A stretch of 64,000 nucleotides of DNA from Diplonema papillatum. Its lineage: Eukaryota; Euglenozoa; Diplonemea; Diplonemida; Diplonemidae. Positions 7,960 through 59,001 of this stretch are shown one piece after another. The stretch is taken from NCBI GenBank assembly GCA_030068145.1, contig JAPJBO010000910.1, positions 1 through 64,000 of the forward strand. The letters are read 5' to 3'. The notes beneath the pieces are model-generated. The model did not search any database. It was not told the DNA's origin and saw only the letters and a list, made by a program, of their open reading frames with translations. Made by a program: the position numbers and the translations under genes. The stretch's first letter is position 1; each line of letters starts with the position of its first letter.

Positions 7960-8060
7960 CTGCTTTTGGTTTGTATAAGCGCCAGCTTGGAAGGAAATTC
8001 TCGACGAAGCTGCCAGACAAAGAACGGAAGGCATCCCGAGTGCTAACCTTAACAAGCACC
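7960..8060 (-). repeat. Dispersed repeat R3, inverted copy
   Basis: Reverse complement of the segment at 16840-16935 and 34690-34770, recognised by CTTTGTCTGGCAGCTT and CATTTCCTTC on the minus strand. Confidence 0.7.
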
Positions 8061-17480: not shown

Positions 17481-17734
17481 ACCTTGTTGTTGTTGACACA
17501 AAAAGAAGAAAAAAAACGGCACTTCGGAAGAAGCACGCAGTTCTTTTCCAACCTTGAAGTCTCCGCTAGATAGATAAAAATTGTTCCACGGCCTGTACGA
17601 GCAAGCTTCGCGACGGCATGCGCACGCGAGTTTGTGTGTGCTTTCAGTTCATTTTTCAAGCAGCGGCTGACGAGGGGTTCTGCGAAACAGGTCAATCGAG
17701 TAATAGCACGCGACTTCAAGTCGGTGCAAGCCCG

Positions 17735-17985
17735 CAAGAGCCCTATCAGCTTTTGACGGTAGTGTAGTGGACTACCGTGGCTGTAACGGGTAACGGGGAA
17801 TTAGGGTTCGATTCCGGAGCCTGAGAAACGGCTACCACATCTAAGGATGGCAGCAGGTACGCAAATTGCCCAATAGCAACACTGCTGAGGCAGCGAAGAG
17901 AAATAGCCTCGACACGTTCTTAGTACGTTGCGAAGAAGCAATGGATGATATCTAAACCTGTAAACACCCCTACTCGCAACCTGCG
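17735..17985 (+). rRNA. Fragment of 18S rRNA gene (not full length)
   Basis: Recognisable conserved 5'-domain 18S words in order: CCTATCAGCTTTTGACGG, GTAACGGGTAACGGGGAATT, GGTTCGATTCCGGA, GCCTGAGAAACGGCTACCAC and GGCAGCAGGTACGCAAATTG. The usual GAGGGA before GCCTGAG is missing. Sequence after about 17985 is unrelated, so this is a roughly 250-nt pseudogene fragment. It overlaps the region represented at 27045-27290. Confidence 0.85.
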
Positions 17986-26960: not shown

Positions 26961-27044
26961 AATGTCAGTCTCACCTTCCTCATTCGTTTTCGATGCCAGA
27001 AGAAGCCAGCAACAATTCCTCGAGGAGTGCATCCACGTCCACTG

Positions 27045-27290
27045 CCGGTTGCAGCAGGCACGCGAATTGCCCAATAGCGACACTGGTGAGGCAGCAAAGA
27101 GAAATAGCCTCAACACGTACTTAGTACGTTAGAAGCAATGGATGATTTCTAAACCTGCCAATGAACACAATTGGTGGACAAGTCTGGTGCCAGCACCCGC
27201 GGTAATTCCAGCACCAATAGCGTATAGTAATACTGCTGCTGTTAAAAAGCTCGTAGTTGAATCCAGAGCTCAGGTTGCAAGGTGGCCCAG
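27045..27290 (+). rRNA. Fragment of 18S rRNA gene including the 530-loop region
   Basis: Contains GTGCCAGCACCCGCGGTAAT, TTCCAGCACCAATAGCGTAT and GTTAAAAAGCTCGTAGTTGA, unmistakable nuclear 18S. The first 110 nt overlap the 17735-17985 fragment with about 10% difference. The CAGCACCCGCGG variant and GCTGCTGTTAAA are features I associate with Euglenozoa. The fragment begins directly at the end of the LINE remnant and ends about 65 bp before kappa GST exon 1. It is inside an intron and only about 245 nt long, so it is a pseudogene. Confidence 0.88.
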
Positions 27291-27354
27291 TTTGCTGGGC
27301 ATCAGCGTAAACTCGAAGCAACAGTATGCGAACAAGAAAAGTCATCATGCACAC

Positions 27355-31560: not shown

Positions 31561-31667
31561 TTTAAGGTATAGTGTGTATATATCTTTGCTGCCTGTTGCC
31601 GACTATTCGACTTACTTTAGCGCGCACTCTTTTTTCCTATGTGCTTTGCCAAGTCCATGGCTCTTGT

Positions 31668-31762
31668 GACCGACACCGAGTTCACGTTCGCGATGAAAGC
31701 GATCTCGGGCCCCCCACGTGCATACATGTTTAGCAGGGGTTGTCATGTAGCCCGTATCGGTC
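31668..31762 (+). ncRNA. Candidate structured RNA element S1
   Basis: 95 nt. Outer stem GACCGA / TCGGTC; second stem CCGAG / CTCGG with an inner CGC/GCG hairpin; third stem TACATG / CATGTA closing the loop TTTAGCAGGGGTTGT. CCCCCC before the third stem can pair with GGGG in its loop. The same plan with compensating changes is seen at 32935 and 46411. Polypyrimidine precedes it. Confidence 0.5.
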
Positions 31763-31819
31763 TAGCGTCCTGGTAGTTGTTGCCTTGGCGGCAGTCTGGT
31801 TGTTATCTGTGTCGGTTTT

Positions 31820-32835: not shown

Positions 32836-32934
32836 GGTTCTCTTAGAGCAAGAAAGGGCTATGTGGTTACGGGTTGTATATTGCGTGCACGCTTTCGTTA
32901 TGGGTTATGGCTAGCCATGTCCGGGACTGTTTGT

Positions 32935-33028
32935 GACCGACACCAAGTACATTCCTTCGTGGAATGTAGTCTTGGGCCCCCCACGTTCTACAAGTTGAGC
33001 AGGGGTTGCCTTGTAGCCCGTATCGGTC
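32935..33028 (+). ncRNA. Candidate structured RNA element S2
   Basis: 94 nt. Outer stem GACCGA / TCGGTC; second stem CCAAG / CTTGG extended by a perfect TACATTCC / GGAATGTA hairpin; third stem CTACAAG / CTTGTAG around TTGAGCAGGGGTTGC. Compared with S1, stems differ at both partners (CCGAG/CTCGG against CCAAG/CTTGG). It lies downstream of the last F1 of the array, in the copy A intron. Confidence 0.55.
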
Positions 33029-33520
33029 TACGTGTCAACCCTGTAGCTTTCTACTTTGTTCTTTTACGGGGAGGGGTAACAGTAAGGGGGTACAGGGTAG
33101 GTAAAAGTAGCGGGACGGGTAAAAAGGTTCTTTTAGAGCAAGAAAGGGCTATGCGAGTGCGTGTTGTTTCTTTGAACCAGTGGTGTACGTTTTTCTAAGA
33201 ACAATTAATTGTAAACACGCAAGAGAACGCTGGCAGCAGAAGATTGGTCTGACGACCCATATTCACTTTCAGGCTAGTCCTCCTCGGCACGTACAAACAA
33301 ACCATCACGCCTATTATTCTTTCAAACAGGGCGGTCGTTCGCGGGAAGAGATGTGAAACGGGGGTTTGCCTAGAGGATTTTCGCAGTATTCTGCAGATGC
33401 TTTGAGCTACATTTGCCTTAACCGTACGATATTAGAGAAAACTCCCTCGCACTTCACCTGGGTCAAGTCCAGATCCTCCTTGGTGGGTGCGGGCATCTTG
33501 CGTTTCCTTTTTTTGTTTGT

Positions 33521-38860: not shown

Positions 38861-39179
38861 TGTGTACGATTCCATCGACCTGTACGAGGTCCCTGACTCA
38901 TCTACAGGACAAGTGGTCGTGTGGCGGGAACAATTGTGTGCATTGTCCTGTGTCTGGTCAACCGGGAGCGACCGTCAGAATCCCTTGCACCCAGCACAGG
39001 AAAAAGCCCACTTTGCAAGGTGCTTCTGCGGCATGAGCTTCTAATCCACCGGCATGACTCAACCGCGCCCCGGTCGTTTGTCGTCCCTGATACTGGACGG
39101 GGGAAATCGTCGACGGGTCTTTCTCCCCTATACCCGGCTTTGACGAGCGATGTGCACGTCAACACCGCAACGGACCTTC

Positions 39180-39372
39180 ACCAGGGTTTCCCCCGGCTTC
39201 GTCCTATCCAGGCATAGATGACCATCTTTCAGGTCCCCTTGTGTGATGAGCGCGTTCACCGCCGCTCGATAAAACGCGGGGCGGCATCGATCCTTTTCCA
39301 GAAGCTGTCCAGCGGGGGCAGTCCCGGCTACGCGCACTTGAAACAGTTTCGAATTAGGCGACAGGTACCCGA
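39180..39372 (-). CDS. Orphan exon candidate
   Basis: The open segment reads LFGYLSPNSKLFQVRVAGT, CRPAFYRAAVNALITQGD and CLDRTKPGETLVK, preceded by an acceptor-like CTGAAG and followed by a donor-like GAAG/GTCCGT at 39180. The composition looks like real protein, but no partner exon could be placed and no family is recognised. A second, weaker minus-strand open segment with a CPSCSG motif is at 39468-39707. Confidence 0.35.
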
Positions 39373-45800: not shown

Positions 45801-46410
45801 TATCTTGCGTGCGTTTCCGGCGATCCCGACCAGGGTTGCGCACGGCCTCGAGAGCGTCTCTTTTCGTGTGGCCAACTATGGGTGGATTGCTTGAGCATCA
45901 TCCATTTTCGGGACCGGTGCATTCAGCAGGTGAGTTGGTACGCACTCACTATCGGATGCCGACTTCCATGGCCACCGTCCTGCTGTCAAGATGAACCGAC
46001 ACCCTTCGCAATGAAGCGGTTGTTGTTCACTCTTCTCCTTTCTTTTAGAGTTAAAGGAAGCGCCGTATCCTTATTTTTGACAAAATACGGATCTGGCGCT
46101 TCCTTAGTTCGTGGCGGTACATTAACCCCTTAAGGACGGAGGGAGGGGTAGGTTACTTTGGGAAAGGGGGGGGGGGGGGGGTCGTTGTATAATGGTTTAG
46201 CTTGAAGGGTGTTGGAAAGGTTGAAAAAGGTTTTGGGGGTCACCGTCGGTTTGTGTTTTTATTTTTTTCTGTATACTTTTTTTGGGGGGTAATTATTTTT
46301 TCGGGGGTTCGCGTAACCCTTCTTTTCCGGAAGATAACGTTATCTTTTCTTTTCTCTCTGGCGCTCTTTTTCTCTCTATCTCTCTCTTTGGCTAGCAAAG
46401 CGACTATTGC

Positions 46411-46504
46411 GACCGACACCACGACCACACCCGTAATGAATGTGATCAAGGGCCCCCCACGTTCTACATGTTGAGCAGGGGTTGCCATGTAGCCCGTACC
46501 GGTC
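46411..46504 (+). ncRNA. Candidate structured RNA element S3
   Basis: 94 nt with GACCG / CGGTC outer stem, a weaker second hairpin (CACA/TGTG), CCCCCC, and third stem CTACATG / CATGTAG around TTGAGCAGGGGTTGC. It lies about 180 bp beyond the stop codon of the Penelope-like ORF but on the opposite strand; whether it belongs to that element is unknown. Confidence 0.5.
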
Positions 46505-46682
46505 TAAGCCTTCATTGCAGCTTCCATAAGCACCCCCGTTGGGCGCCTTCATCCTCTCATGTTAGTGTGCGTTCACTCGTACAGACACTTCGAGTTTTTC
46601 CCGTTAGTCAGGGTAAACGGGTGCGGAGTGAAACATAGACCAGCCAGCAATCAAGAACCCGATGAGGCTCAAACGACGCGGA

Positions 46683-49600
46683 TCAGAATCTCACACCCGC
46701 GAGGTGGCAACGTCTCTCATGCGCGCGGAGTCCCCTCAGACCTTGGAACGTCTGGCCATCCTTCGTGCATTCGACGGAGCAGTGTTGACATCGCAGCACC
46801 GGGGAACCTGTTAACTGCTGTTCAAACAACTGACCATGCGGTGTCAGACATTGGGAGTCCGGCAAGGGCGGGCAGGGTGGCGAATTACCAAAGGGGCAGA
46901 AGGAGTCAGGTGATCCTTCCGACTGCCGGCTCATCAAATTACCGGCTGAACCTGGGGGTGCAGGCAAGTCGGGTAGCCGATCCTGAGTGGGAAGCACCAT
47001 GGAGGGTGACGGGGCACGGACAGTCATGTCGTGGGCATTCCGGGGGATCCGGACAAAGGCCGCGAGGTAAACGTCACCCCACGGAATGTCGTCGACAGAG
47101 GTGACGTGCAGGTCGTCGAAGAGGATCCACCCCGTGTCTTGCGCAACGTACGTGACGTAGTGCCCGCTAGCCGTATCCTCCCCCATGTGCACCACGACGG
47201 CTGCGAGGCGTAGCAGATGGTCCGGCGGTCCGAAGAAGGGGGGCAGTTTCACGTCATTCTGGCGCCTGGCACCGTTTCTCGTGTAGATGCCAAACTGCAT
47301 CAGAACACATTCAGCTGTCAGACGGAGATCCATGCTTTCAACCACCGTACCTACAGCCTTGCAGTCGCATACTCTCTCCGGATTCACAAACCCGTGCACG
47401 TGGAGAGAGTCTTCCAGCTTCCTTCCGCAAGGAATTTGCAAACATTGCATTACCTGACTGCTGGAAGAAGTGCGTCCACATGCACTGCATCGTACTGAGC
47501 TGGTCCAGCCGTTCTCCAAGCATGTTACGAAGAGTTGGTAGCCCGGGCAGGGGGTCCCCGTTTCGTCCGGACCCAGCGTCGCACTAGTCGCGCTGAGTAT
47601 CGCTACCAGAGCTTCGTGCGCATCGTGCTGCCGTGCATCGCAGAAGTTTGCGAACATGCTCAGGATGGCTTGGACACCCATTCTCCGACAATCCCGGCTA
47701 CGCTGGTCACCACTGTCGCGAGAGCTTGACAGCATGGCAAAGTAAGCCAGGAAGTCCCCGAGAAATCCACGGCAGTTGGGGAGGTCCTGCGCAAGGCTCC
47801 AGTACATCTCTCTGATCGGCCCAACCCGTAGCAGGAGCTGCAGCACCGCACCAAAGAAGCACGTGTTCCCCAGATTCGGGAGGCCGGCGGGGCCAAACAG
47901 CGTCGGATCATGCCTCACGGAAGGCGGGTGTGTACAAACGACTGATCGGTAGCACGTGGATGGAGGGGCAACTGTTAGAACCGGTTTGTGGACATTCGAG
48001 CGGCGTCGCTTTGAAGCCCGTTGTTCGTCCTCTTCAGCCTTTCGCTTGTGGCCTTTCCGCGTGGACTCACGGGGGGCGGTCGTGTCAGCCTGTCGGGTCG
48101 GTGCTTCGGTGGGCGGTGATCGGGGGGCGTCATCTTCAGCTTCCGGGACAGGTTGGGGGCGGCCATTGTATTTCACGAAGGGTCTTTCAGCCAGAAGGCG
48201 CTCGATCGCAAGGTCCATCGCGGCCGGCTCTGGCAGTGATAGAGTGCGTTCCACCTCGTGAATGAGCCAGAAGAAGTGCCTCCGCACCTTCCCGCAATGC
48301 TCGCCAAATTTGGCCTCTGGGTATGTGTCCAGGAGCCATTTGCGGAATCCACTCTTCAAAACGCTTTTCCGGTAACCACGCCGCATGAGTTTCAAGACCG
48401 TGTTGTTCATTTCGGTCTTGAAATCATATATGTTGTTGGCGATCCTACCGTTGCGAACGAGGGCCCCAATGAGGATGCTCGAACCGAAGTTTGACGGGGC
48501 CGTAGACAGGACTGACGTGTACGCGAGGGGGCGGTACGGGTAGGCTTTCGCCTTGTCCAAGACCGACAGTCGCATGTATCGCCTTCCAGACGCGCCGGAG
48601 ACCTCATGTCGTATCCGTATGCCAAGGAAAGTCGCATCCCCTACGCATGCATTCGTCTGCTTGTACCCCATGCTGTAGATGGACTCGGGAGGGGGTTTCG
48701 TCCCGAAACAGAGCAGGTCATCTATAAAACGGCGCGTCATGCTGAGGAGTGTAGCCCGCCGGATGTCCCTTTCAGCCAGGAGTCTCATCATGTACCTCTT
48801 CTCCTTTGCGTAGCAGAAGAGATTGGCAATGTCTGGGGAGGCGTTAGCGCCCATCGGGATGCCCAATATTTGCCGCATGAGGATGCCGTTCACCAGTACG
48901 TACGTGTTCGCCAGGCAGAAAGCGAGGAGGGCCTTGAGGTCGTGTGCAGAATATGCTGCCTGCTGTGAGCTCAGATCCGTCAACAGCATGAACGCAAAAC
49001 AACGTTTCTTCTTCTGCGGCCCATGTTGGCTCTTCGGTCGTACTAGGACCAGTTCATCAACCCGAACGCCGAGCCGTTCGGCCTCCGCTGCAAAGGCTTC
49101 GTCGATGGTACCAGCGATTTCCTCCAGCAGTTCCTCGAGTCCCAGCTGGTCGTACATGGTCGTGAAATCCCATGTACCCGCGACCAGGCCCGAGAGCTCG
49201 TCAACATGCGTCTTCAGAAAGAAGGCGGTGTCGTCACTGGACTCCGTGATCCAGAAGAATCTAAACCCGGTCGCGTTGAATCGGTCGTTGTCCTCCCTCC
49301 GTAGGATCTCCATGACTGATTTCAACAGACCCGTTAGATCCAGCTGTGCATCCGTCGTCGATGAAAATGTTGCATCGGGGCGGCGTGTTTCGCGTTCAGG
49401 AAAAGTCTCCCCCGGGCCCACAGTGTTTTTGCGGGAGACCCCGGCGATGTACCGCATGGTTATCACCTCCTTGTGTAGTTTCAAGGTGCCATAAAGGTAG
49501 GGGAGGGTGTTCGTGGGGCTCAGCCCTTTTTGCTCCAGGTACGTCTTGTGATCTGCTACGACTTCTTCCGGTGTCTTCTCGCTCGGGGCGTAGTTCACGC

Positions 49601-51437
49601 TGTGGTTAACCTTCGTGTACAGATCCTGGTTGTAGAATCTTCTACACACGAACCCGAAGTCGTGAGAACTCTTGTCGACCGGGAGAATTACGAGGTCCTT
49701 GTGCAGTTCTCGCAGGCGTCGACGCGATGTGGTTGTCACCTCCGGTTCGGCACCAATACGCGTCACGCCGACGGTCGACATTATCTTCTCCCGCAGCAGT
49801 CTGGCGAAACTAGGCGGGGAGTCATTAAAGTACCCCTCGACGAACAAAGCCACCGCCCTATCCACTTCAGTACAAATAGCTTCGTCGCCGCCATCCGGGC
49901 GGAACTTGCGACCTTTGTCGAAGAGCGTAACTAGTTCGCTGCAGGTGTCGAGGAGGTGTGCTTGCCCACACGCATGGCCTTGAATGTGGTATCCTTGCAG
50001 CAGATACTTTTGACACGGGCAGTCTTCGGGCGGAGGGGCCGGCTCCGGGGTCGTCTGTCTTGAAACCTCTGTGAAGTTGGAAAGGAGGACCCCGAGAGGG
50101 GGGTTGAGTGACGTAGAGACTCTCGTGTTGATGAATTCCGTGGGGTCGGCGAGGAGAGCACGGAGTTGGGCATCATGGCGGAAGATAGCGGCAAGTTTGC
50201 GCTCGTCCAGCAGCTTGCTGACCTGTTGGATGCAGAACCACGGGGTTCGTGCCGCACTTTTCTTCTTTTTCGCGAGGTGGTTTATCTCACCAAGCCGTGC
50301 AGTGAGCAGCTCGTCCAGGATCCCCACCTTCGGATGCTGCAGGTGTTCGATCATGAACCGCCGAACCCACGTCCGAACCCTGTACACCCGGCTCTTCATC
50401 CACGGGTTCACGTCATACTCCCGCAGTGCGTCCTCCTCAAGTCCGAAGAGGTGCTGCAACTGCCTACGGATGCCGAAGAATCTACCCCGTCCCTGGTTGA
50501 TCCGTATCTCTTCGCCATCCACGTGAACCCACGGCTCCCCACGCTCGCGTGAAGCTCCTTGGGCGTCCCGTTCGTTGCCCGGTGCCTTTGTGAACGATGG
50601 TGCAGTGCGGGGCTTTTTCCTCCGTCTGTTCAAATCGCTGGCTGTCCTCACCGTGTTGAACATCGGCTGCAGCATCGCGATGAACGCCATCTCTATCGGC
50701 TCCGACACCCTGTCGAACGAACTCCCGTCGGAGTAAAACGCACCAGGGATGTCGTAGAGCACGAAAGCGTACGGCGGGGAAGGGAGGTTCTGTAAGTGAC
50801 GCTTGAACTGGTCCTGTTTGCTGTTCCTGCCAGACCAGTGTTTGGCGACCCTTTCCTGCATCGTCTTGCCTGTCTTGCCGACATATAACAGGTTAGCATG
50901 CGAGTCCACGAGTCCATAGATGAGACCCGAAGCCTTGTAGTTGCTCGGGTTCTCCGGCTGCTGGAGCTTGAGCGTCGCGTATGTGTGTGCAAGCTTCCTC
51001 CCGTATCTTCTCAGGAACCGGCTCGTGAATTCCACGCCTTGCTCCTTCCATTTCGACCAGTCGATCTGCGTCGTCTTTTCCGTCTTCGTACGAACGCAGT
51101 CGGTTTGGAAGAAGGGTGCGAGGAATGGTTTCGCAAACTCCGGGCGCCGCCGCATATCCGCGTCGGCAGGCGGTACACGCATCTTGACCCGTTCCGGTAG
51201 GACCTCGCGCGTTTGTGGACCGGGTCGTCGCAAAACCGGACACGCGGAACAGTCGGGGGGTTTTTTTGGGGGGGACGGTGGCAGTCGTCGTGGAGGAAAG
51301 TCTACGAGTCGAACGGAAGAGTCGTATGGACGAAGGTAACGTAACGGAAGGGAAGATCTATGACGTAACGTGGGCGGATGGGGCGGCTTGTTCGTCTGGA
51401 CGGTCGGCGGTGCAATACGGGGGGGTAGGGAATTCAC
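46683..51437 (-). CDS. Penelope-like retroelement polyprotein: GIY-YIG, RT, ubiquitin protease, zinc finger
   Basis: 1584 uninterrupted codons. The reading frame opens with GTG at 51437; the first ATG is at 51182, giving 1499 residues. Domains (numbering from 51437): proline-rich leader 1-165; GIY-YIG endonuclease about 171-262 (GLIYGLVDS, LLYVGKT, Arg196, Glu249, Asn261); RT about 580-1035 with motif A TWDFTTMYDQL (Asp757), motif B GIPMGANASPDIANLF and motif C FIDDLL (Asp906-907), typical of Penelope-like elements. A Lys/Arg linker 1125-1148 is followed by a ubiquitin-specific protease about 1185-1465: Cys box GLPNLGNTCFFGAVLQ (Cys1193), QHDAHEAL, CxxC pair, His box SGHYVTYV (His1426) and WILFDD. 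The C-terminal C2H2-like finger is 1550-1578. N-terminal GIY-YIG is the permuted arrangement known for one PLE lineage; I know of no USP fusion. Confidence 0.9.
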   Translation of the reverse strand: MNSLPPRIAPPTVQTNKPPHPPTLRHRSSLPLRYLRPYDSSVRLVDFPPRRLPPSPPKKPPDCSACPVLRRPGPQTREVLPERVKMRVPPADADMRRRPEFAKPFLAPFFQTDCVRTKTEKTTQIDWSKWKEQGVEFTSRFLRRYGRKLAHTYATLKLQQPENPSNYKASGLIYGLVDSHANLLYVGKTGKTMQERVAKHWSGRNSKQDQFKRHLQNLPSPPYAFVLYDIPGAFYSDGSSFDRVSEPIEMAFIAMLQPMFNTVRTASDLNRRRKKPRTAPSFTKAPGNERDAQGASRERGEPWVHVDGEEIRINQGRGRFFGIRRQLQHLFGLEEDALREYDVNPWMKSRVYRVRTWVRRFMIEHLQHPKVGILDELLTARLGEINHLAKKKKSAARTPWFCIQQVSKLLDERKLAAIFRHDAQLRALLADPTEFINTRVSTSLNPPLGVLLSNFTEVSRQTTPEPAPPPEDCPCQKYLLQGYHIQGHACGQAHLLDTCSELVTLFDKGRKFRPDGGDEAICTEVDRAVALFVEGYFNDSPPSFARLLREKIMSTVGVTRIGAEPEVTTTSRRRLRELHKDLVILPVDKSSHDFGFVCRRFYNQDLYTKVNHSVNYAPSEKTPEEVVADHKTYLEQKGLSPTNTLPYLYGTLKLHKEVITMRYIAGVSRKNTVGPGETFPERETRRPDATFSSTTDAQLDLTGLLKSVMEILRREDNDRFNATGFRFFWITESSDDTAFFLKTHVDELSGLVAGTWDFTTMYDQLGLEELLEEIAGTIDEAFAAEAERLGVRVDELVLVRPKSQHGPQKKKRCFAFMLLTDLSSQQAAYSAHDLKALLAFCLANTYVLVNGILMRQILGIPMGANASPDIANLFCYAKEKRYMMRLLAERDIRRATLLSMTRRFIDDLLCFGTKPPPESIYSMGYKQTNACVGDATFLGIRIRHEVSGASGRRYMRLSVLDKAKAYPYRPLAYTSVLSTAPSNFGSSILIGALVRNGRIANNIYDFKTEMNNTVLKLMRRGYRKSVLKSGFRKWLLDTYPEAKFGEHCGKVRRHFFWLIHEVERTLSLPEPAAMDLAIERLLAERPFVKYNGRPQPVPEAEDDAPRSPPTEAPTRQADTTAPRESTRKGHKRKAEEDEQRASKRRRSNVHKPVLTVAPPSTCYRSVVCTHPPSVRHDPTLFGPAGLPNLGNTCFFGAVLQLLLRVGPIREMYWSLAQDLPNCRGFLGDFLAYFAMLSSSRDSGDQRSRDCRRMGVQAILSMFANFCDARQHDAHEALVAILSATSATLGPDETGTPCPGYQLFVTCLENGWTSSVRCSACGRTSSSSQVMQCLQIPCGRKLEDSLHVHGFVNPERVCDCKAVGTVVESMDLRLTAECVLMQFGIYTRNGARRQNDVKLPPFFGPPDHLLRLAAVVVHMGEDTASGHYVTYVAQDTGWILFDDLHVTSVDDIPWGDVYLAAFVRIPRNAHDMTVRAPSPSMVLPTQDRLPDLPAPPGSAGNLMSRQSEGSPDSFCPFGNSPPCPPLPDSQCLTPHGQLFEQQLTGSPVLRCQHCSVECTKDGQTFQGLRGLRAHERRCHLAGVRF

Positions 51438-53343
51438 GCTTCTAAACTACTGCTACTGGTTTTTTTGCCAGGCTCAGGGCCCGACGCGTCTTTTGTCGAT
51501 TTTCTGGGGTTTCGGTTGTACAATGGAACAGGTCCCGATTGGTAGTGACGAGACCGTACGGGGGCAGGATGGAGTTCACCTAAACTCTGCCCGGTCTCGA
51601 TGCCGTGGTTGGTGGTACAGCGGGGCGAAGTCGATTTGGGTGGACCGTCTCCCTACCTGTACCGGTTGCTTCCTTCTCGTCGGTTGTGTGCACAAGGCGG
51701 GTTTTTTTCGGGCTCTGTACGTCCCTCGCGTCAGAGCCCTCAGAAAGCGAGCGGGTTCTTTTTTTGAGAGGTCACCCCGCGGCGTTTGGGGTGACTGGGT
51801 GGGTACGGCCGCTCCGTCCACCTAGGCCCCGGAATGAACCGGGTTCCCCTGTCGTTGATGGGAGAAGGACACAACAAACGAAGCACTCACATTCCGTCCA
51901 GGGGAACAGTCTAAATCATCCGCCCTAAGTTTTTCCGCGATATCGTCGCGCATCGCGTCTTCGGCTCGTGTCCGTGGATGGGTCATTGGCTTCTGACGGA
52001 GCAGCGGACTGGGTACCGGGCGTAGTTGTAGAGGAGGTGATAGTGCAGGTAGTCGGCAGCGGCATGTAAACATGGGGACGTAGTGTAGGGGAGAGGGGGG
52101 CGGCGCGTTGCACTAATCTGTATGTCAGTCAGCAGGCAGCCGTGGCATCCAATATCAACGGGCAGCCCGGTTGGCGGTCTACTCGGCGATGCGCGTCGCA
52201 GGAGGTGGACCGCCATCCGGGGGCCGGTGTGTAGAGCGTAGCTCCGAATGGGCGTCGTCCGGCAAAGTGCAACGCCGAAGGTACATGGACCCTTGAACTT
52301 GAACTCACATCCCGTCCGGGAGAGCCGTCTTATGGTCTTCCGCGATAGCGTCGCGCTTCGTGTCTCCGGCTCGCGTCCGTGCGTGGGTCGCTGGCCTCAA
52401 TGGAGCAACGGACTGTACAGGGAACAGGCGCCGCCGGGAGTAGAGGAGTAGAGGAGTCGAGTAAGTGCTACGGTAGATAGTCGGCAGCAGCATGTTGCGT
52501 TGAGTAGACCGGGCCACACCGTAGAGGAGAGAGGGTGCTGATGGGCACGTCAGATTGCAAGTGTTGTGGCGGTCAGTAGTATCGTGAAACCCGGGACGGT
52601 GGCTCACTCAGCGGATAAGCATTTGACCATCTACCGGGAGTCGAGATGTAGGACGCAGTTTCGAAAGGGGGTGTGGGGGTGGACTGCTATGGTGTGTCAG
52701 GCGGTGTAGTAAGTTGTGTGGCGACAGGCCGTTGCGTCGGTATTGCACGGATGATGGTTGTTGTACAGTTGGAAGGTCGCAGGCGGTTGCAAGCTCGTCT
52801 GTGTCGTAAGTACCAGTCGTCTGCCACGGGGGCAGGGGGTGTAGGAAGCAGACTCGAGCAGTGTGTTGGCAGTAACCCTCTGTCGGTGTGTCTGGTTGCG
52901 TGGTGGTGGAGAGTCGTACGTCCGCGGGTTGTTGTTCGCGCCGGTTGGCAGGCGTTTGTGACACTCAGCAGCGCATCGCAGCCCAGATAAGCGGTCCCTC
53001 CCGCGGAAACGCATCGCGGGTGTGGATCGCAAATCAGGGGTGTAGGTGTTGAACGCAGCCTCGGACAGGGGGCGGCAGGGTGCAGGCGTAAGCAGTTTTG
53101 GACAGGGGGCGGCTTCGAGTGTTGTCCGGCGGTGTGTGTTAAATCGTCGATCGGCAAAGTGCAGGTAGAATTGTATGATGTAGTGAACACGCTGGGCACC
53201 CGCGCGGCGGCTTCTCGTTCCCTGGACGTCTATCGATACAGGCGAATGTAGAAAATGGGAGATCGGACTCTCGCCGGGTAGGACTCGTCAATATTCTCAA
53301 AAGGTGGCGGGCTCGAGGGGCATCGTAGCATGAGGCGGTGTCG
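51438..53343. repeat. Upstream flank of the Penelope-like ORF with diverged 410-bp repeats
   Basis: 51888-52230 and 52300-52640 are diverged tandem copies (CCGCGATATCGTCGCGC against CCGCGATAGCGTCGCGC, and AGTCGGCAGCGGCATGT against AGTCGGCAGCAGCATGT). A third, weaker copy may follow. They could be the element's 5' long repeats, since Penelope-like elements often carry pseudo-LTRs, but no matching copy was found downstream of the ORF. 51438-51887 has no recognised content. Confidence 0.55.
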
Positions 53344-53606
53344 TTTTATTTCCCTTCTCTGGGGAAGAGCTGCCGCGCCAAACCTCGCTTCTTTGTACCA
53401 CATGCGGAGAAAAGAGAAAGAGAGACATAAATAGAGACAGAGAGGGTTTGGAGGAGGACGCTGGCGTGCGTCGGGGCCAGTGAGAAGCACCGGCCACCTT
53501 GCTAGATACATCCTGCCGCGGAAAAGGAGCCCTTTCATTCGCTGGGGTCAGCACCCCTGCGGAGGCCCTCTTCCGTGTGCCTTCACGCGGAAGGAAACAG
53601 TAGGCA
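53344..53606 (-). repeat. Split direct repeat B, outer copy (B2)
   Basis: 263 bp, TTTTATTTCCCTTCTCTGGG to AAGGAAACAGTAGGCA, matching 54750-55012. It marks the 3' end of the retrotransposon. Confidence 0.9.
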
Positions 53607-53784
53607 GGATTGTATCGGTCTGTGTTGAGCAAGGATTTCTTCTTCCTTGTCGCACAAGGGGAAAGGAGGAGGAAAACAGAAGATCCAGGGCAGTGCGGAG
53701 GGGATGCAGTAATCACGCTTCCAGCCTCATGCACGCACGTGCCCGATGCCCTCTGTGGAGCGGAAGGAAGTCAGCCCTCTGCTG

Positions 53785-54445
53785 AGGGGAAAAGCTGCAT
53801 AGCCCTCTGCGGAGGGAAAAGCAACGTCATTTCCCGCACGGGGAAGCCCGCCCTCTGCTGAGGGGAAAACGCTGCACGATGCCACCCCTGCTGGGGAGCC
53901 CTCTGCGGAGGGAGCGCGACGTCATTTCCCGCACGGGGAAGCCAGCCCTCTGCTGAGGGGAAAACGCTGCACGATGCCACCCCTGCTGGGGAGCCCTCTG
54001 CGGAGGGAGCGCGACGTCATTTCCCGCACGGGGAAGCCAGCCCTCTGCTGAGGGGAAAACGCTGCACGATGCCACCCCTGCTGGGGAGCCCTCTGCGGAG
54101 GGAGCGCGACGTCATTTCCCGCACGGGGAAGCCAGCCCTCTGCTGAGGGGAAAACGCTGCACGATGCCACCCCTGCTGGGGAGCCCTCTGCGGAGGGAGC
54201 GCGACGTCATTTCCCGCACGGGGAAGCCCGCCCTCTGCTGAGGGGAAAACGCTGCACGATGCCACCCCTGCTGGGGAGCCCTCTGCGGAGGGAGCGCGAC
54301 GTCATTTCCCGCACGGGGAAGCCAGCCCTCTGCTGAGGGGAAAACGCTGCACGATGCCACCCCTGCTGGGGAGCCCTCTGCGGAGGGAGTGCGACGTCAT
54401 TTCCCGCACGGGGAAGCCAGCCCTCTGCCGAGGGGAAACGCTGCA
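53785..54445 (+). repeat. 95-bp tandem repeats inside the retrotransposon 3' end
   Basis: About seven units with exact 95-bp spacing, built from AGCCCTCTGCTGAGGGG, CTGCACGATGCCACCCCTGC and GCGACGTCATTTCCCGCACG. Each unit holds several CCCTCTGCNGAGGG hairpins. Absence of stops lets an 82-codon frame recur on the minus strand; this is a repeat artefact. The array lies between A2 and B2. Confidence 0.95.
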
Positions 54446-54522
54446 CGATGCCATCGGGGGACCCTCGCGGAGGGAAGAAGTTCATGGCGCGATACCCTCA
54501 TCGCATTGGGAGGGAGGGAGGG

Positions 54523-55012
54523 AACTTTTTTAAGCCCGGCGGAGGTCAACTGACCGGAGCTACCGGGGAGAGTGTGCTTACGTTGTGTGGTAACCTGATA
54601 CGTTCGTGTGGTATGCGTCGATTGTCTAATGAGCTTGAAGCCCCGCATGGGCGCTTTGTTCCGTGCTGTGGGCGCCGCCCGATGCACGCGGTGATTCGTT
54701 TGCGACAATAAAACCTGAGGGAAAAAGACTGCGTGTTTATCCCTCTCAATTTTATTTCCCTTCTCTGGGGAAGAGCTGCCGCGCCAAACCTCGCTTCTTT
54801 GTACCACATGCGGAGAAAAGAGAAAGAGAGACATAAATAGAGACAGAGAGGGTTTGGAGGAGGACGCTGGCGTGCGTCGGGGCCAGTGAGAAGCACCGGC
54901 CACCTTGCTAGATACATCCTGCCGCGGAAAAGGAGCCCTTTCATTCGCTGGGGTCAGCACCCCTGCGGAGGCCCTCTTCCGTGTGCCTTCACGCGGAAGG
55001 AAACAGTAGGCA
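54523..55012 (-). repeat. Internal split repeats A2 and B1, adjacent
   Basis: 54523-54749 (A2) equals 58775-59001; 54750-55012 (B1) equals 53344-53606. They abut without spacer at 54749/54750. In split-repeat elements this internal junction templates the ends of the next copy through a circular intermediate. Confidence 0.9.
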
Positions 55013-55053
55013 TTATTTAAAGACGCCGCGCCCCCCTCCCCCCCCTCAATCTC

Positions 55054-56850
55054 TCAGTCTCTGGTGTCCAGGTCGGCGACCATGTTCTCGCCCGGAACCA
55101 GATGGGTGAGCACGTCCGCATCGCGCAGGCGCTCCTGCATCTCAACGATGAGGCGGTTTTCCGCTGGGTGCGGGGACGCAAGCTTTCGGTGGCGGCTCTC
55201 GGCCGTGCTGTTGTCGTGGAAGACATCCAGCGTCACCCACCCAGTCGTGACGTGTCGAGCCAGCAGGACGCCAAGAATCGCCGTCACCAGCTCGCGCCGC
55301 CGAATCGGCGTCGGCGGAGCCAGCCTCGCCAGCCGATCCTTCCATCTCCAGCTCTCGCGAGCGAGGACGGTCCGTCGCGTCGGATCCAGGACGACCACCC
55401 CACCTCCCTGGTCGGATGCGTCCGTCCAGACGTGCACTCGCCGCGCTGGGCGCCTGACTCTGCGGGGGGAAGCGTCCCCCAGCCAGCGATCACCAGCTTC
55501 CAGCTCCGCGAGCAGCTCCTGCGGGAGCTCCACGAGCGTGTCCCAGTCGCGGTAGGTGAGGCACCTGCCACTCACCAGTCGGCTCGCACGCAGCAGCCCG
55601 GGATACGCCGCCGCCGGGGACCTCATGACGTACAGTGCCCAGCGCAGGCACCCGATACGCTGTGCCAGGGCCCGGAAGGACGTCACGCGTTGCGGCTTGT
55701 TCGCGCGGCAGACTGCTGCCCATTCCCGCGGGATCGCGATCGTCTTTGTAGCTAGGTCCAGATCCAGACCGTTGAAGGTACCGACTTGCGAGGGGCCTTG
55801 CGCCTTGTCCTCCCGGATCTGGATCCTGGTGTCGGCAAGCACGGCCCTCAGGCTCCGCTCGTCCCGGACGACGTCGGACCTTGTCCAGCCCCCGTAGGCT
55901 ATGTCGTCGTAGATCGCCAGACTGCGGCTTCCGATGCCGGCCAGTCGGCGGACCCCCAGGGTCGTCAGCTGGGCGATCGCCGGCGCGCGCGCAATGCCCG
56001 GGACGGCTATCCGGAAGACGTAGTACGCGTTGGCCGCCCTAAACCCCAGGTAGTCCGCCAGCGCGTCGGACACCGGAAGCTGGTAGAAGTAGCCCAGCAG
56101 GTCTAGGGTCGCGAACCAAGCGTGGTCCAGGACGAAGCCCTCCACATCCCTGAGCGACGGGGTGATGGGGGACAGCGGTTGGGAGGTGCGGCTGTCAAAG
56201 GGCCTGCCATCGATCAGCAGACGGGTCTCTTCCTTCCCCTTTTTCGGGATTTTGAACACCTTCAGAGTGATCCGCGGCCTCTTTTCGACTCTCCTAACGA
56301 CGCCACTCTGCAGCATCACCGCCAGGTCGGCCTCAGTGATGTCCGAGCTCGGTGGAGCGTGGTGCCTCTCGTGCGAGAGGAGCATGGGCTCTCGCGTCAG
56401 CTGGCGCAGGACGCGAATCTCGTCCTCCCACAGGCCTCGCTCGACCTTCCCGTAGTCGGCCTTTGTGACCGGCATGGTGTCGATGGGCCCGCGGGACGTT
56501 CTGTACACCGGGCTCGGTGCCTTCGTGTACGTCCTCGATGCCAGTTCCGATAGCGCCTCTTCCTGAGCCCGAACCCCTTCGACGTGCGTGCTCACGTCCC
56601 CGCGCAGCAGCCAGTCTTCCAAGGTCACCGCCCTGTCGAAGTCGGCCTCGCTCTGCTCGCCCATGTCGCCCCGTAACCGGCTTTCCCCCCATGCGAGCAG
56701 GCGGTCCAGATACCCGGCTGCCCCGGGATGGCGGCTGTTTGCCCAGTCCCGCAGGGGATGCGAGCTCTTCAGGTCCTGTGCGTACTCGGGGCAGAACGTG
56801 CTCGTCCTGGCCGCACCCTTCACCTTGAGCACGCCATCAGGTCGCCGCTC
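55054..56850 (-). CDS. Reverse transcriptase-RNase H of the tyrosine-recombinase retrotransposon
   Basis: The functional part covers about 592 codons ending DLDTRD before TGA at 55054; the same frame is open without ATG back to 57852. Numbering from 57852: RT motif A WFATLDLLGYFYQL (Asp584), an AIAQLTTLG segment, and catalytic box LAIYDDIAYGG (Tyr648, Asp649-650); RNase H with WTDASDQGGG (Asp811), RRRELVTAILG (Glu854), FHDNSTAE (Asp880) and MVADLD (Asp927). All catalytic residues are present. No ATG begins this ORF near its natural N-terminus (VKGAARTSTFCPEYA, about residue 343), so it is probably expressed by recoding or as part of a fusion. No methyltransferase domain was seen. Confidence 0.9.
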   Translation of the reverse strand, partial: ERRPDGVLKVKGAARTSTFCPEYAQDLKSSHPLRDWANSRHPGAAGYLDRLLAWGESRLRGDMGEQSEADFDRAVTLEDWLLRGDVSTHVEGVRAQEEALSELASRTYTKAPSPVYRTSRGPIDTMPVTKADYGKVERGLWEDEIRVLRQLTREPMLLSHERHHAPPSSDITEADLAVMLQSGVVRRVEKRPRITLKVFKIPKKGKEETRLLIDGRPFDSRTSQPLSPITPSLRDVEGFVLDHAWFATLDLLGYFYQLPVSDALADYLGFRAANAYYVFRIAVPGIARAPAIAQLTTLGVRRLAGIGSRSLAIYDDIAYGGWTRSDVVRDERSLRAVLADTRIQIREDKAQGPSQVGTFNGLDLDLATKTIAIPREWAAVCRANKPQRVTSFRALAQRIGCLRWALYVMRSPAAAYPGLLRASRLVSGRCLTYRDWDTLVELPQELLAELEAGDRWLGDASPRRVRRPARRVHVWTDASDQGGGVVVLDPTRRTVLARESWRWKDRLARLAPPTPIRRRELVTAILGVLLARHVTTGWVTLDVFHDNSTAESRHRKLASPHPAENRLIVEMQERLRDADVLTHLVPGENMVADLDTRD

Positions 56851-57788
56851 ACCGGCGTGTGGAGCAGCAGCGACGCGCGAGCCGTCCTCACGCTGTCCGG
56901 GGTCAGGCAGCCCCAGAGATAACGCTTCAACGTGTCCTTGGACTGGTGACGGGCCATGAGCAGGAGGTCCTCCCAGCCCGCCCCGCTTCTGGCCAGGTGC
57001 TGGAGCGCCCCTCTCTTCCAGCTGTGCTCTGCACAAACCGGGAACAGCTTCCTCGCTTCCCGCAACAGCTTCCTCGTCGTGGCCTCGGTGAAGCGAGCCC
57101 CCCGCTGCACCCACCTGCTTACTCGCAGCGCCACGCCCAGGGGGACCCGGTAAGTCACCTCTGACTCCCTCATGCGAAGGCTCGCCTCCTTCGTGGTCCA
57201 CCACGAAACTCGGAGCAGACCCGGCCCCACGATGACCACGTCTGTCGGGGCCAGGGCCCGCAGGTCCGCCATCCGCAGCGCTCCCGCCCACGCCAGGCAG
57301 GCAGCCACCGTCACCTGCTCGTCGCCGCCCCTGACCAGCCCCTCGACGAGGGTCCGTTGCTGCTCCAGCGTGATCGGGGGGGCATGCGCCGGCACTTCCC
57401 TGCGCTCGAGCCTGGCTTTGAGGATGGCCTTCTTCATGGCCGCCAGATCCCCCGACGGCACCCCGAGCTTCGCCCCCAGCACCTCGACGTACTTGCCGAC
57501 GGAGGCCGTGCGCATCTCGCCGGTCCTCGGCCTGCCTCTCTGCCCCGGCACCCTCGCGACGTACGCTTCCAACTGCTCCTGTGTCATGCCCTTGCCGAGC
57601 ATGGCGGTCGCGAACGCCTTGATTCTCAGCGCGGGGGGAGCCGCCTGCAACCCCGCCACGGCTGTGAACCGCGTCAGCGACGCCACGATCGACGCCCGCT
57701 GCGCCGTCGTCTTCTTCGAGGTCGCGCCGCCCTCGAAAACCGCGACCCGCCTCTCCCACGCGGCAAACCCCCCTCTCTGGGAGGGGAG
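56820..57788 (-). CDS. Tyrosine recombinase of the retrotransposon
   Basis: In frame with gag and separated from it only by the gag TGA. The open frame runs from 57788 to TGA at 56820; the recombinase-like region starts near FAAWERRVAVFEGG. Numbered from a GTG at 57686: N-terminal helical domain 1-105 and catalytic domain with Arg138 (AGALRMADLRAL), Lys166, His221/Arg225 (HSWKRGALQHLA), His247 (LLMARHQSKD) and nucleophile Tyr256 (TLKRYLW). It integrates the circular cDNA. It has no convincing ATG of its own, so stop-codon readthrough, a GTG/CTG start, or splicing must be invoked. Its 3' end overlaps the RT region by a few codons. Confidence 0.88.
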   Translation of the reverse strand, partial: LPSQRGGFAAWERRVAVFEGGATSKKTTAQRASIVASLTRFTAVAGLQAAPPALRIKAFATAMLGKGMTQEQLEAYVARVPGQRGRPRTGEMRTASVGKYVEVLGAKLGVPSGDLAAMKKAILKARLERREVPAHAPPITLEQQRTLVEGLVRGGDEQVTVAACLAWAGALRMADLRALAPTDVVIVGPGLLRVSWWTTKEASLRMRESEVTYRVPLGVALRVSRWVQRGARFTEATTRKLLREARKLFPVCAEHSWKRGALQHLARSGAGWEDLLLMARHQSKDTLKRYLWGCLTPDSVRTARASLLLHTPVSGDLMACSR

Positions 57789-57801
57789 TCACCCGTTTTT
57801 T
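57767..57801 (-). promoter_or_regulatory. Probable -1 ribosomal frameshift signal on the gag stop
   Basis: Slippery heptamer A AAA AAC at 57801-57795, in the correct gag phase (ACA AAA AAC). Then a 5-nt spacer GGGTG and a 9-bp hairpin ACTCCCCTC / GAGGGGGGT with loop CCAGA (57789-57767, one G-T pair). The gag TGA is formed by the last two spacer bases and the first stem base. Slipping -1 enters the frame that contains RT-RNase H, while reading through TGA enters the recombinase frame. Confidence 0.75.
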
Positions 57802-58751
57802 GTCCTGCGGGAGACGGGCCCGTGCGAGAAACGGCAGTCCACCCTTGTGCATCTGCCTGCTTTGAAATTGCGGCAGGCCGGCGCCTGACGCGGAGGGACC
57901 CCCCGAGCGCGGGGCGGAACCGACTTGGGCGCCGCCTTAAACTGCGCCGTGAACCGGCGCCGGGCCTGCCGCACTCTCTCGGGCAGAAGTTCCACCCTCA
58001 GCACGTCGCGCATCACTAGCGCTGCGCTGGGGTCGCGGGTCTCGTACTCCGCGTTCTGCTCCTCGTAGGAGTGGAAGAGCCCCCCCAGGCGGAGGATCCA
58101 CATTCGTTTCGGGGGACCGGATTCCCCGCGGCGCAGGCGGACGAGGTCACGGACCCGTTCCGTGACATCGTCCCGCCTGTCCTGCAGCTGTTGGTTCCCT
58201 TTGAACCTGTACAGCCTTCGGACTGCGTCCTCAAACCCCCGCATGTTTGCCGCCGTCGGCTGCATTGTTCTCCACCGCTCCGGGTCGAGGAACGCGAAGT
58301 CGTCATCGTCGTCATCGTCGCCGACGTCCTGCCCCGCGACTGCCGCGCCATCCAGCAGCGCGAGCACCTCGCGCTCGTCTTCGAGGCTGCCCAGCTCCCG
58401 CTGCAGCGTCGGGCCCAGGCCCGCCCAGAACCCTGGGTCCTGCTCGTCAAAGGCGAGAAAGATTTCTTCCGCCCTCGCCCTCGGCAGGCCGGGCATGAGC
58501 TCGGCCGGCATCAGTGGTACCCCCCCCTCTCCCGGTAGCTCCTCTCCGCCTCTTGGCCTCTTGGCCTCCTTCTCCGCCTCGTCCTGCTCACGTGCCCTCT
58601 TCTGGGCAGCGCCGATCTCCCTCTCGGCGGCTTCAACTTCGGCCTCACGCCGGGCCAGGCCTGCCTCGAGATCGAGAAGGCGCTTCTCCAGGAGAGCCAG
58701 CCCCTCGGCGTCCCTCTGCAGGGCGTTCTGCTGTTGCTGCTTGGGGGGCAT
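57789..58751 (-). CDS. Gag-like protein of the retrotransposon
   Basis: 320 residues from ATG at 58751, 24 bp inside repeat A1. Residues 8-65 are a charged coiled coil (LALLEKRLLDLEAGLARRE). An acidic stretch (DDDDDDD) lies near 145, then a Trp/Arg-rich middle. The C-terminal CCCH zinc finger (CRNFKAGRC, VDCRFSH) is near 292-310. Zinc finger plus coiled coil fits nucleic-acid binding and particle assembly. Ends RRTKNG at TGA, where the recoding signal lies. Confidence 0.85.
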   Translation of the reverse strand: MPPKQQQQNALQRDAEGLALLEKRLLDLEAGLARREAEVEAAEREIGAAQKRAREQDEAEKEAKRPRGGEELPGEGGVPLMPAELMPGLPRARAEEIFLAFDEQDPGFWAGLGPTLQRELGSLEDEREVLALLDGAAVAGQDVGDDDDDDDFAFLDPERWRTMQPTAANMRGFEDAVRRLYRFKGNQQLQDRRDDVTERVRDLVRLRRGESGPPKRMWILRLGGLFHSYEEQNAEYETRDPSAALVMRDVLRVELLPERVRQARRRFTAQFKAAPKSVPPRARGVPPRQAPACRNFKAGRCTRVDCRFSHGPVSRRTKNG

Positions 58752-58774
58752 CGCAACTTGGGGAAACTTGGGGT

Positions 58775-59001
58775 AACTTTTTTAAGCCCGGCGGAGGTCA
58801 ACTGACCGGAGCTACCGGGGAGAGTGTGCTTACGTTGTGTGGTAACCTGATACGTTCGTGTGGTATGCGTCGATTGTCTAATGAGCTTGAAGCCCCGCAT
58901 GGGCGCTTTGTTCCGTGCTGTGGGCGCCGCCCGATGCACGCGGTGATTCGTTTGCGACAATAAAACCTGAGGGAAAAAGACTGCGTGTTTATCCCTCTCA
59001 A
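58775..59001 (-). repeat. Split direct repeat A, outer copy (A1)
   Basis: 227 bp identical in extent to 54523-54749 (AACTTTTTTAAGCCCGGCGG to TTTATCCCTCTCAA). Marks the 5' end of the retrotransposon. It probably holds the promoter. Confidence 0.9.

Follow-up and report, generated by a model that had tools for sequence, protein, structure and literature searches.

The marine flagellate Diplonema papillatum harbours a Penelope-like element (PLE) that encodes, all in one frame, an N-terminal GIY-YIG endonuclease (EN), a CxC motif, a Penelope-like reverse transcriptase (RT), a ubiquitin-specific protease (USP) and a C2HC finger, in that order, and we regard it as practically certain that this fused architecture exists and is under selection. 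PLEs are telomerase-related copy-and-paste elements. The fuller reading, in which a recently mobile PLE with an N-terminal EN carries its C-terminal USP as a standing, selected component that would protect the element's own protein in cis, strikes us as evenly poised between right and wrong. The element was read in a stretch of 64,000 nucleotides (the window) from contig C910 of a 271-Mb assembly comprising 2910 contigs.

A sequence-only reading of the window had claimed a single frame of 1584 codons (46683-51437, reverse strand), and this frame is present, counted from a GTG. However, the GTG at 51437 is only the mechanical start of the frame; translation most likely begins with the ATG at 51182, because the NCBI product P0001 (1499 aa, Diplonema papillatum, labelled ‘putative ubiquitin carboxyl-terminal hydrolase 16’) begins there and the family B protein P0002 begins one residue earlier. 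The predicted protein is thereby shortened to 1499 aa, 5 of which are not the same in P0001. The features of the copy are collected in the table; in addition, its 5' UTR holds a degenerate repeat pair (51920-52011 and 52325-52415, 79%).

Features of the retroelement copy in the window (residues in the numbering of the 1499-aa protein)
Feature	Position	Strand	Basis
Whole retroelement copy	46166..53343	(-)	blastn vs 20 other copies
5' UTR of copy	51183..53343	(-)	
Single ORF, 1499 codons, most likely start MRVPPADADM	46683..51182	(-)	
GIY-YIG endonuclease, residues 80-185	50628..50945	(-)	Pfam PF01541
Region with the CxC motif (CPC, residues 388-390)	49947..50027	(-)	
Penelope-like RT, residues 491-1005	48168..49712	(-)	
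Fast-evolving basic linker, RT to USP	47898..48167	(-)	
Ubiquitin-specific protease, residues 1096-1382	47037..47897	(-)	Pfam PF00443
USP catalytic residues Cys 1108, His 1341, Asp 1356	47859-47861, 47160-47162, 47115-47117	(-)	
C-terminal C2HC zinc-finger-like segment, residues 1461-1499	46683..46802	(-)	by eye
3' UTR, C-run at its end	46166..46682	(-)	

The USP that had been proposed from its Cys, QHDAHE and His boxes is borne out by the Pfam UCH profile, which matches residues 1100-1365 of the window protein with an E-value of 1.3e-20 (74.6 bits against a cut-off of 23.9); the relatives P0002, P0013 and P0009 score 82.4, 66.2 and 56.8 bits, respectively, and a genome-wide UCH search reports the window's USP at 47088-47885. 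Alignment places the triad at C1108, H1341 and D1356/D1357, together with the QHDAHE box, so that the Cys1193 and His1426 of the 1584-residue numbering correspond to C1108 and H1341 and the triad is present as claimed. The Cys, His and Asp are retained in seven aligned Diplonema USPs, those of A1 (the window's family), A2, A3, B, C, C2 and D, and this retention argues against a catalytically idle module that would do no more than bind ubiquitin. Such a module is what the USP of P0009 might suggest: this predicted protein, in which no GIY-YIG was seen, consists of CxC, RT and several C2HC-like fingers followed by a C-terminal USP that has lost the QHDAHE wording (degenerate QDA box) and the Asp box (FIN). 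For the element as a whole we consider an idle USP quite improbable.

USPs cleave after the C-terminal Gly-Gly of ubiquitin, and a role proposed for Ulp1-like or retroviral proteases is the processing of their own polyproteins. A USP that cleaves the element's own protein would be in keeping with the fast-evolving linker that precedes it and, according to the available text of PMC4640811, with the proteases carried by other retroelements. We nevertheless rate such self-processing as very improbable, because Pfam at E up to 10 detects no ubiquitin fold in the window protein, and its 1499 aa contain one Gly-Gly, located at 431 in the pre-RT region. The same two findings tell against the earlier suggestion that the USP might process ubiquitin fusions, as far as the element itself is concerned. 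The same Pfam scan of the window protein gave UCH and no C48 (Ulp1-type) protease, the kind that marks the NeSL/Utopia/Dualen protease elements.

The GIY-YIG domain is borderline by Pfam, scoring 22.5 bits in the 1584-aa frame, 22.6 in the 1499-aa protein and 23.7 in residues 60-1005 (cut-off 22.6), and a profile of a 32-row alignment of related proteins (A4) matches I-TevI (1ln0) with an E-value of 0.0015; the endonuclease noted in the sequence-only reading is upheld at the cut-off, with the I-TevI match in its support. It is placed N-terminally, as it is relative to the RT in P0002, P0014 and family D, and not C-terminally as in the canonical Penelope, Neptune and Poseidon PLEs, and the window protein has no CxxC between GIY and YIG. 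The RT claim likewise stood, even though the Pfam profile RVT_1 itself is silent on the window protein: the motifs and the RT tree (see below) agree with it, and phmmer with the RT part of the sister P0002 retrieved P0015-P0039 (E 9e-33 to 4e-11), many of which carry GIY-YIG and RVT_1. In this search, as in the one that gave P0001, the best 7999-8000 candidates by shared words were scored. Alignment A4 was built from 39 phmmer matches, with P0001, P0004-P0008, P0011 and P0039 omitted as duplicate, fused or partial models, and Pfam at E up to 1 detects RVT_1 in 21 of its rows, GIY-YIG in 21 and UCH in 5. The RT catalytic columns (D of DFTT, GIPMG and DD of FIDD; Asp 672, residues 774-778 and Asp 821/822 in the window protein) are invariant throughout A4, and both Cys of the CxC motif nearly so. 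A PDB search with the RT alone returned 0 matches, an NCBIfam scan gave matches at chance level only, and scans of viral contigs with A1 and A4 queries found no relatives.

When the genome was searched at the DNA level with a 3.3-kb part of the ORF, the best 40 of 357 candidates being scored, at least 41 matches were obtained. At least 22 of them, counting the window's own copy, cover the query from end to end at ~100%, the others being 5'-truncated or 91-96% identical; these counts are rough, because repeats in the assembly may be artificially duplicated or collapsed (PMC10161547, available text). From the 41 matches, 20 other copies were fetched by place. The full 1499-codon frame and all motif strings sought are kept in 13 of the 20; four more (L021, L022, L026 and L027) are 5'-truncated but open, and L028-L030 are older copies, L028 being 5'-truncated with one in-frame stop and L029 and L030 carrying small deletions, with one USP string missing as written from L030. 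Since many near-identical copies keep the USP intact, the domain probably serves to shield the element, or what it does, inside the host cell.

The copies share a 3' end, ...CCATTATACAACGA followed by a C-run (at about 46166-46176 in the window), with small changes in some of them. In 20 of 20 copies the 3' end is succeeded by 5-29 C. This stretch, part of it possibly element sequence, may represent the target, the terminus of the element, or both; among the 5' flanks, only 5 of 20 are rich in C (at least 14 of the last 25) and two (L019 and L026) in G. Past the C-run the 3' flanks differ among copies, save for two pairs with a common repeat: L012 and L022 (85% over 390) and L018 and L024 (71 nt identical, 5' ends different). 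The 5' ends vary, those of L012, L013 and L016 being the longest, at 436 bp beyond the window's copy, which lacks 163 bp near 46544 that are present in other fetched copies. The window copy and L017 start at the same base (53343) although three copies extend 436 bp further; this common base may be an alternative start or chance. In L013, an 84-nt flank repeat (98.8%) resembles a target-site duplication, and another contig (C230) carries a head-to-tail pair of copies with a spacing of 7.9 kb. Four of the 20 copies (L012, L016, L024 and L029) have pieces of the 3' end on their upstream side, akin to the pseudo-LTR-like habit of PLEs. Elsewhere in the window, two stretches of ~100 nt (31661-31764 and 32931-33030) are 81-82% like the 3' region of the element (46407-46506), the rest of which is absent there. 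A hammerhead ribozyme was considered and rejected, as Rfam gave no hammerhead match at gathering score within the window, where the copy is 5'-truncated.

The fusion extends to diverged sister families. The pattern GIPMG[A/G]NASPD occurs at 223 places in the genome and nowhere in a reversed control, and six further stretches (L031-L036) were read among these places. The A2 stretch, L032, is 86% identical to the window, and its frame is open over 1497 aa and takes in the complete USP. The A2 gene model P0003 lacks most of the USP; L032 is 99.8% identical to it over 1130 residues and keeps the whole domain in an open frame, so we rejected a true loss in A2 and regard the gap in P0003 as a likely gene-model artefact. 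Family B is represented by L031, which is 5'-truncated yet has an open frame across RT, USP and finger; that this family has a GIY-YIG is seen in P0002. The stretch of family D (L034) is a single open one of 1383 codons with GIY-YIG, CxC, RT and USP. In the C2 stretch (L035) the frame stays open from ahead of the CxC up to and including the USP; a GIY-YIG motif was not observed in it, but the related gene model P0014 has one. The frame of the A3 stretch (L033) is interrupted within the RT, and L036 is incomplete. With the best 40 candidates scored in each case, matches spanning the query at 99-100% number at least 22 of 43 for family B (21 of these from base 7), at least 13 of 44 for C2 and at least 24 of 43 for D; these counts, like that for A1, include each query's own copy. 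Three C2 copies stand in tandem on contig C510, 5.7 kb apart.

A UCH search of the genome yielded at least 149 matches scored of 935 candidates, 95 of which fall into three groups of exactly equal score (85.9 bits, 11 matches; 85.3, 43; 76.5, 41). All 95 cover profile positions 2-240 without a stop, and each group includes known element copies: the window copy in the 76.5-bit group, L031 in the 85.3-bit group and family B copies making up 6 of the 11 in the 85.9-bit group. Because the scores are equal, we infer that all 95 are element copies; the remaining 54 include host USPs and additional element copies.

Selection on the USP was assessed from Nei-Gojobori dN/dS, calculated with our own script for the pairs named here, with L036 left out. 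Between the window and family B the USP is 59.6% identical over 287 residues with 0 gaps, against 29% (RT-USP side) and 37% for the linkers flanking it. The USP dN/dS is 0.226 for A1-A2 (p 5e-18), 0.227 for A1-A3 (p 3e-11), 0.155 for A1-B (p 4e-31; dS near saturation) and 0.134 for D-C2 (p 3e-34; dS high), and 0.19-0.30 between the window and older copies of its own family. The linker reaches 0.39-0.68 overall (A1-A2 0.39, A1-A3 0.47, A1-B 0.64), with significant purifying selection for A1-A2 (p 5e-4), not for A1-B (p 0.07) or D-C2 (p 0.18). Pairwise ratios of 0.13-0.23 in the USP versus 0.39-0.68 in the linker indicate that the domain is under purifying selection between families and subfamilies; changes after insertion would be expected to raise, not lower, the ratio. 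The RT is more constrained still (0.06-0.09), the USP thus being the faster-evolving of the two.

Taken together, these results bear on whether the USP is a passenger, that is, a host gene brought into one copy by chance insertion or by an assembly join. In favour of this, USP genes are common in hosts, and the product bears the name of a host USP at NCBI. However, the domain is found in many near-identical dispersed copies and four multi-copy families and is under purifying selection, and there is no close relative among host USPs (proteins of 817-2600 aa): identity is 26-41%, the highest values covering only one-fifth to one-third of the domain, and ~27% where most of it is aligned. We therefore consider a passenger next to impossible; copies, families and selection rule it out. 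The exact match to a host gene in a single copy that the sequence-only reading had feared did not materialize, and its expectation of the fusion, with the triad in place, in several dispersed copies proved correct and holds in diverged families as well.

We favour in-cis protection of the RT-EN protein as the role of the USP, because every Diplonema family that was read has its USP fused to the RT and because mobile elements repeatedly carry deubiquitinases or related proteases, and would give it a little less than an even chance. From knowledge of the family, the GIY-YIG endonuclease would nick a C/G-rich target, where the RT would prime. The USP, tethered in cis, would strip ubiquitin from its own RT-EN polypeptide or from immediate partners at the integration site, and the deubiquitinated complex would thereby escape turnover by the host ubiquitin-proteasome system.

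Our second choice, which we think rather unlikely, is that the USP acts on the host, deubiquitinating chromatin or silencing factors (e.g. histone H2A or H2B) and so opening the target for integration or expression. Some relatives of USP36 and USP12 act on histones, and the closest USPs in the PDB are USP36 for the window (A1), which matches USP12 as well, and USP12 for family B; the C2HC finger and basic linker flank the domain, and its faster evolution relative to the RT would fit a host-facing role. On the other hand, the nearest USP subfamily is unstable, being USP21 for family C, and families C and D have no finger C-terminal to the USP. The finger itself, first read as C2H2, is in fact C2HC (C-x2-C...H-x3-C), and similar segments occur in P0002, P0009 and P0010.

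An RT tree (31 rows, 542 columns; P0014 omitted as a near-copy of P0013) recovers a clade (100/99) made up of the USP bearers and P0010, with P0003 and P0012 being marked as bearers though their models hold only part of the USP. Since P0010 (CxC, RT and finger, no USP in the predicted protein) sits inside the clade, the USP label changes twice on the tree. The clade adjoins P0015+P0018, then P0016+P0017, and the other 20 rows lie on the far side. On the window's side, none of the 6 proteins whose motif could be read has CxxC between GIY and YIG, whereas 12 of 12 on the far side have it (15 of 33 unreadable, P0014 standing for P0013), a split that we take to match the Chlamys/Naiad division, and the window element falls on the CCHH-less, Chlamys-like side of the PLEs. 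The USP tree joins the element USPs with support of no more than 57/32, where long branches meet, and those of A/B, C and P0009 are only about 20-22% identical to each other; the element USPs may thus have one origin or several. Residues 1-190 of P0016 match, in the PDB, two short viral RNA-polymerase chains (E 2e-4), presumably OTU domains of viral L proteins, and OTUD3 (E 0.006); Pfam at E up to 5 detects neither OTU nor GIY-YIG in P0016. These matches suggest that P0016, a PLE RT protein of a neighbouring lineage, carries an N-terminal OTU-like cysteine protease.

Telomerase-related retroelements might have armed themselves with deubiquitinases repeatedly and under selection, the diplonemid USP clade and the neighbouring OTU element having acquired their proteases separately; we hold this view tentatively and would sooner doubt than affirm it. 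Such separate uptake of unrelated deubiquitinases would imply that hosts restrict PLEs via ubiquitin and that the elements answer with a built-in deubiquitinase.

Among PLEs with an N-terminal endonuclease, Craig and colleagues reportedly distinguished in 2021 a Chlamys clade, whose GIY-YIG is said to lack the CCHH cysteines that Naiad has. The window element shares with Chlamys the N-terminal GIY-YIG without these cysteines, the CxC, the PLE RT and tandem copies, but apparently differs from it in its C-terminal USP, its euglenozoan host and the C-run at its 3' junction. The available text of PMC12477816 names the clade and cites Craig et al., 2021. In light of the available text of PMC4640811, NeSL/Utopia non-LTR elements, which encode an Ulp1-like protease, are alike in that their protein, too, includes a cysteine protease belonging to a ubiquitin-like system; there, however, the protease is N-terminal and of the Ulp1 family, the endonuclease is restriction-like and the RT belongs to another clade. 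Helentrons with an OTU-like protease and Burro gypsy giants with ubiquitination-linked domains (PMC6431247, available text) also bring ubiquitin-related domains onto mobile elements, but these are DNA transposons or LTR elements with OTU or MATH instead of USP. Cellular USPs (C19; USP36, USP12, USP46) share the UCH profile and catalytic boxes with the window's USP, which differs in its ~27% identity and in being fused to a reverse transcriptase. In the literature searched we found no retroelement with a USP, a listing among the Chlamys accessory domains being conceivable, and the available main text of the D. papillatum genome paper contains neither ‘Penelope’ nor ‘ubiquitin’ (PMC10161547).

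If active, the element would be a retroelement with its own deubiquitinase in one protein with polymerase and endonuclease, offering a testable link between retrotransposition and ubiquitin control in an organism where, according to the available text of PMC10161547, gene replacement has already been achieved. For annotation, NCBI products called USP16, USP26, RRP12 or Mg/proton exchanger in this species may be element protein, wholly or partly. In the models P0005, P0006, P0007, P0011, P0012 and P0014 the element protein is joined to others (foreign parts include RRP12, Mg/proton exchanger and dynein intermediate chain) or the USP is partly dropped.

The window holds further repeats. A retroelement with split direct repeats, which we take to be Ngaro/DIRS-like, occupies 53344-59001 on the reverse strand and adjoins the PLE copy exactly, at 53343/53344, by its last repeat. 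Its repeats pair 58772-59001 with 54520-54749 (230 nt, 100%) and 54750-55017 with 53344-53611 (268 nt, 99%), its ORFs lie at 57789-58751 and 55054-57852, the latter RT-RNase H-like by eye with no Pfam match, and a 95-bp tandem array (53801-54453) is found inside it. An 11-bp satellite, CTTCATGGGTC, fills positions 1-5651 with 513 copies and yields long meaningless open frames. Fragments of rRNA genes score above the Rfam cut-offs at 17614-17896, 26972-27337, 39110-39219 and 45891-46006, in agreement with the scattered rRNA pieces reported for the D. papillatum genome (PMC10161547, available text).
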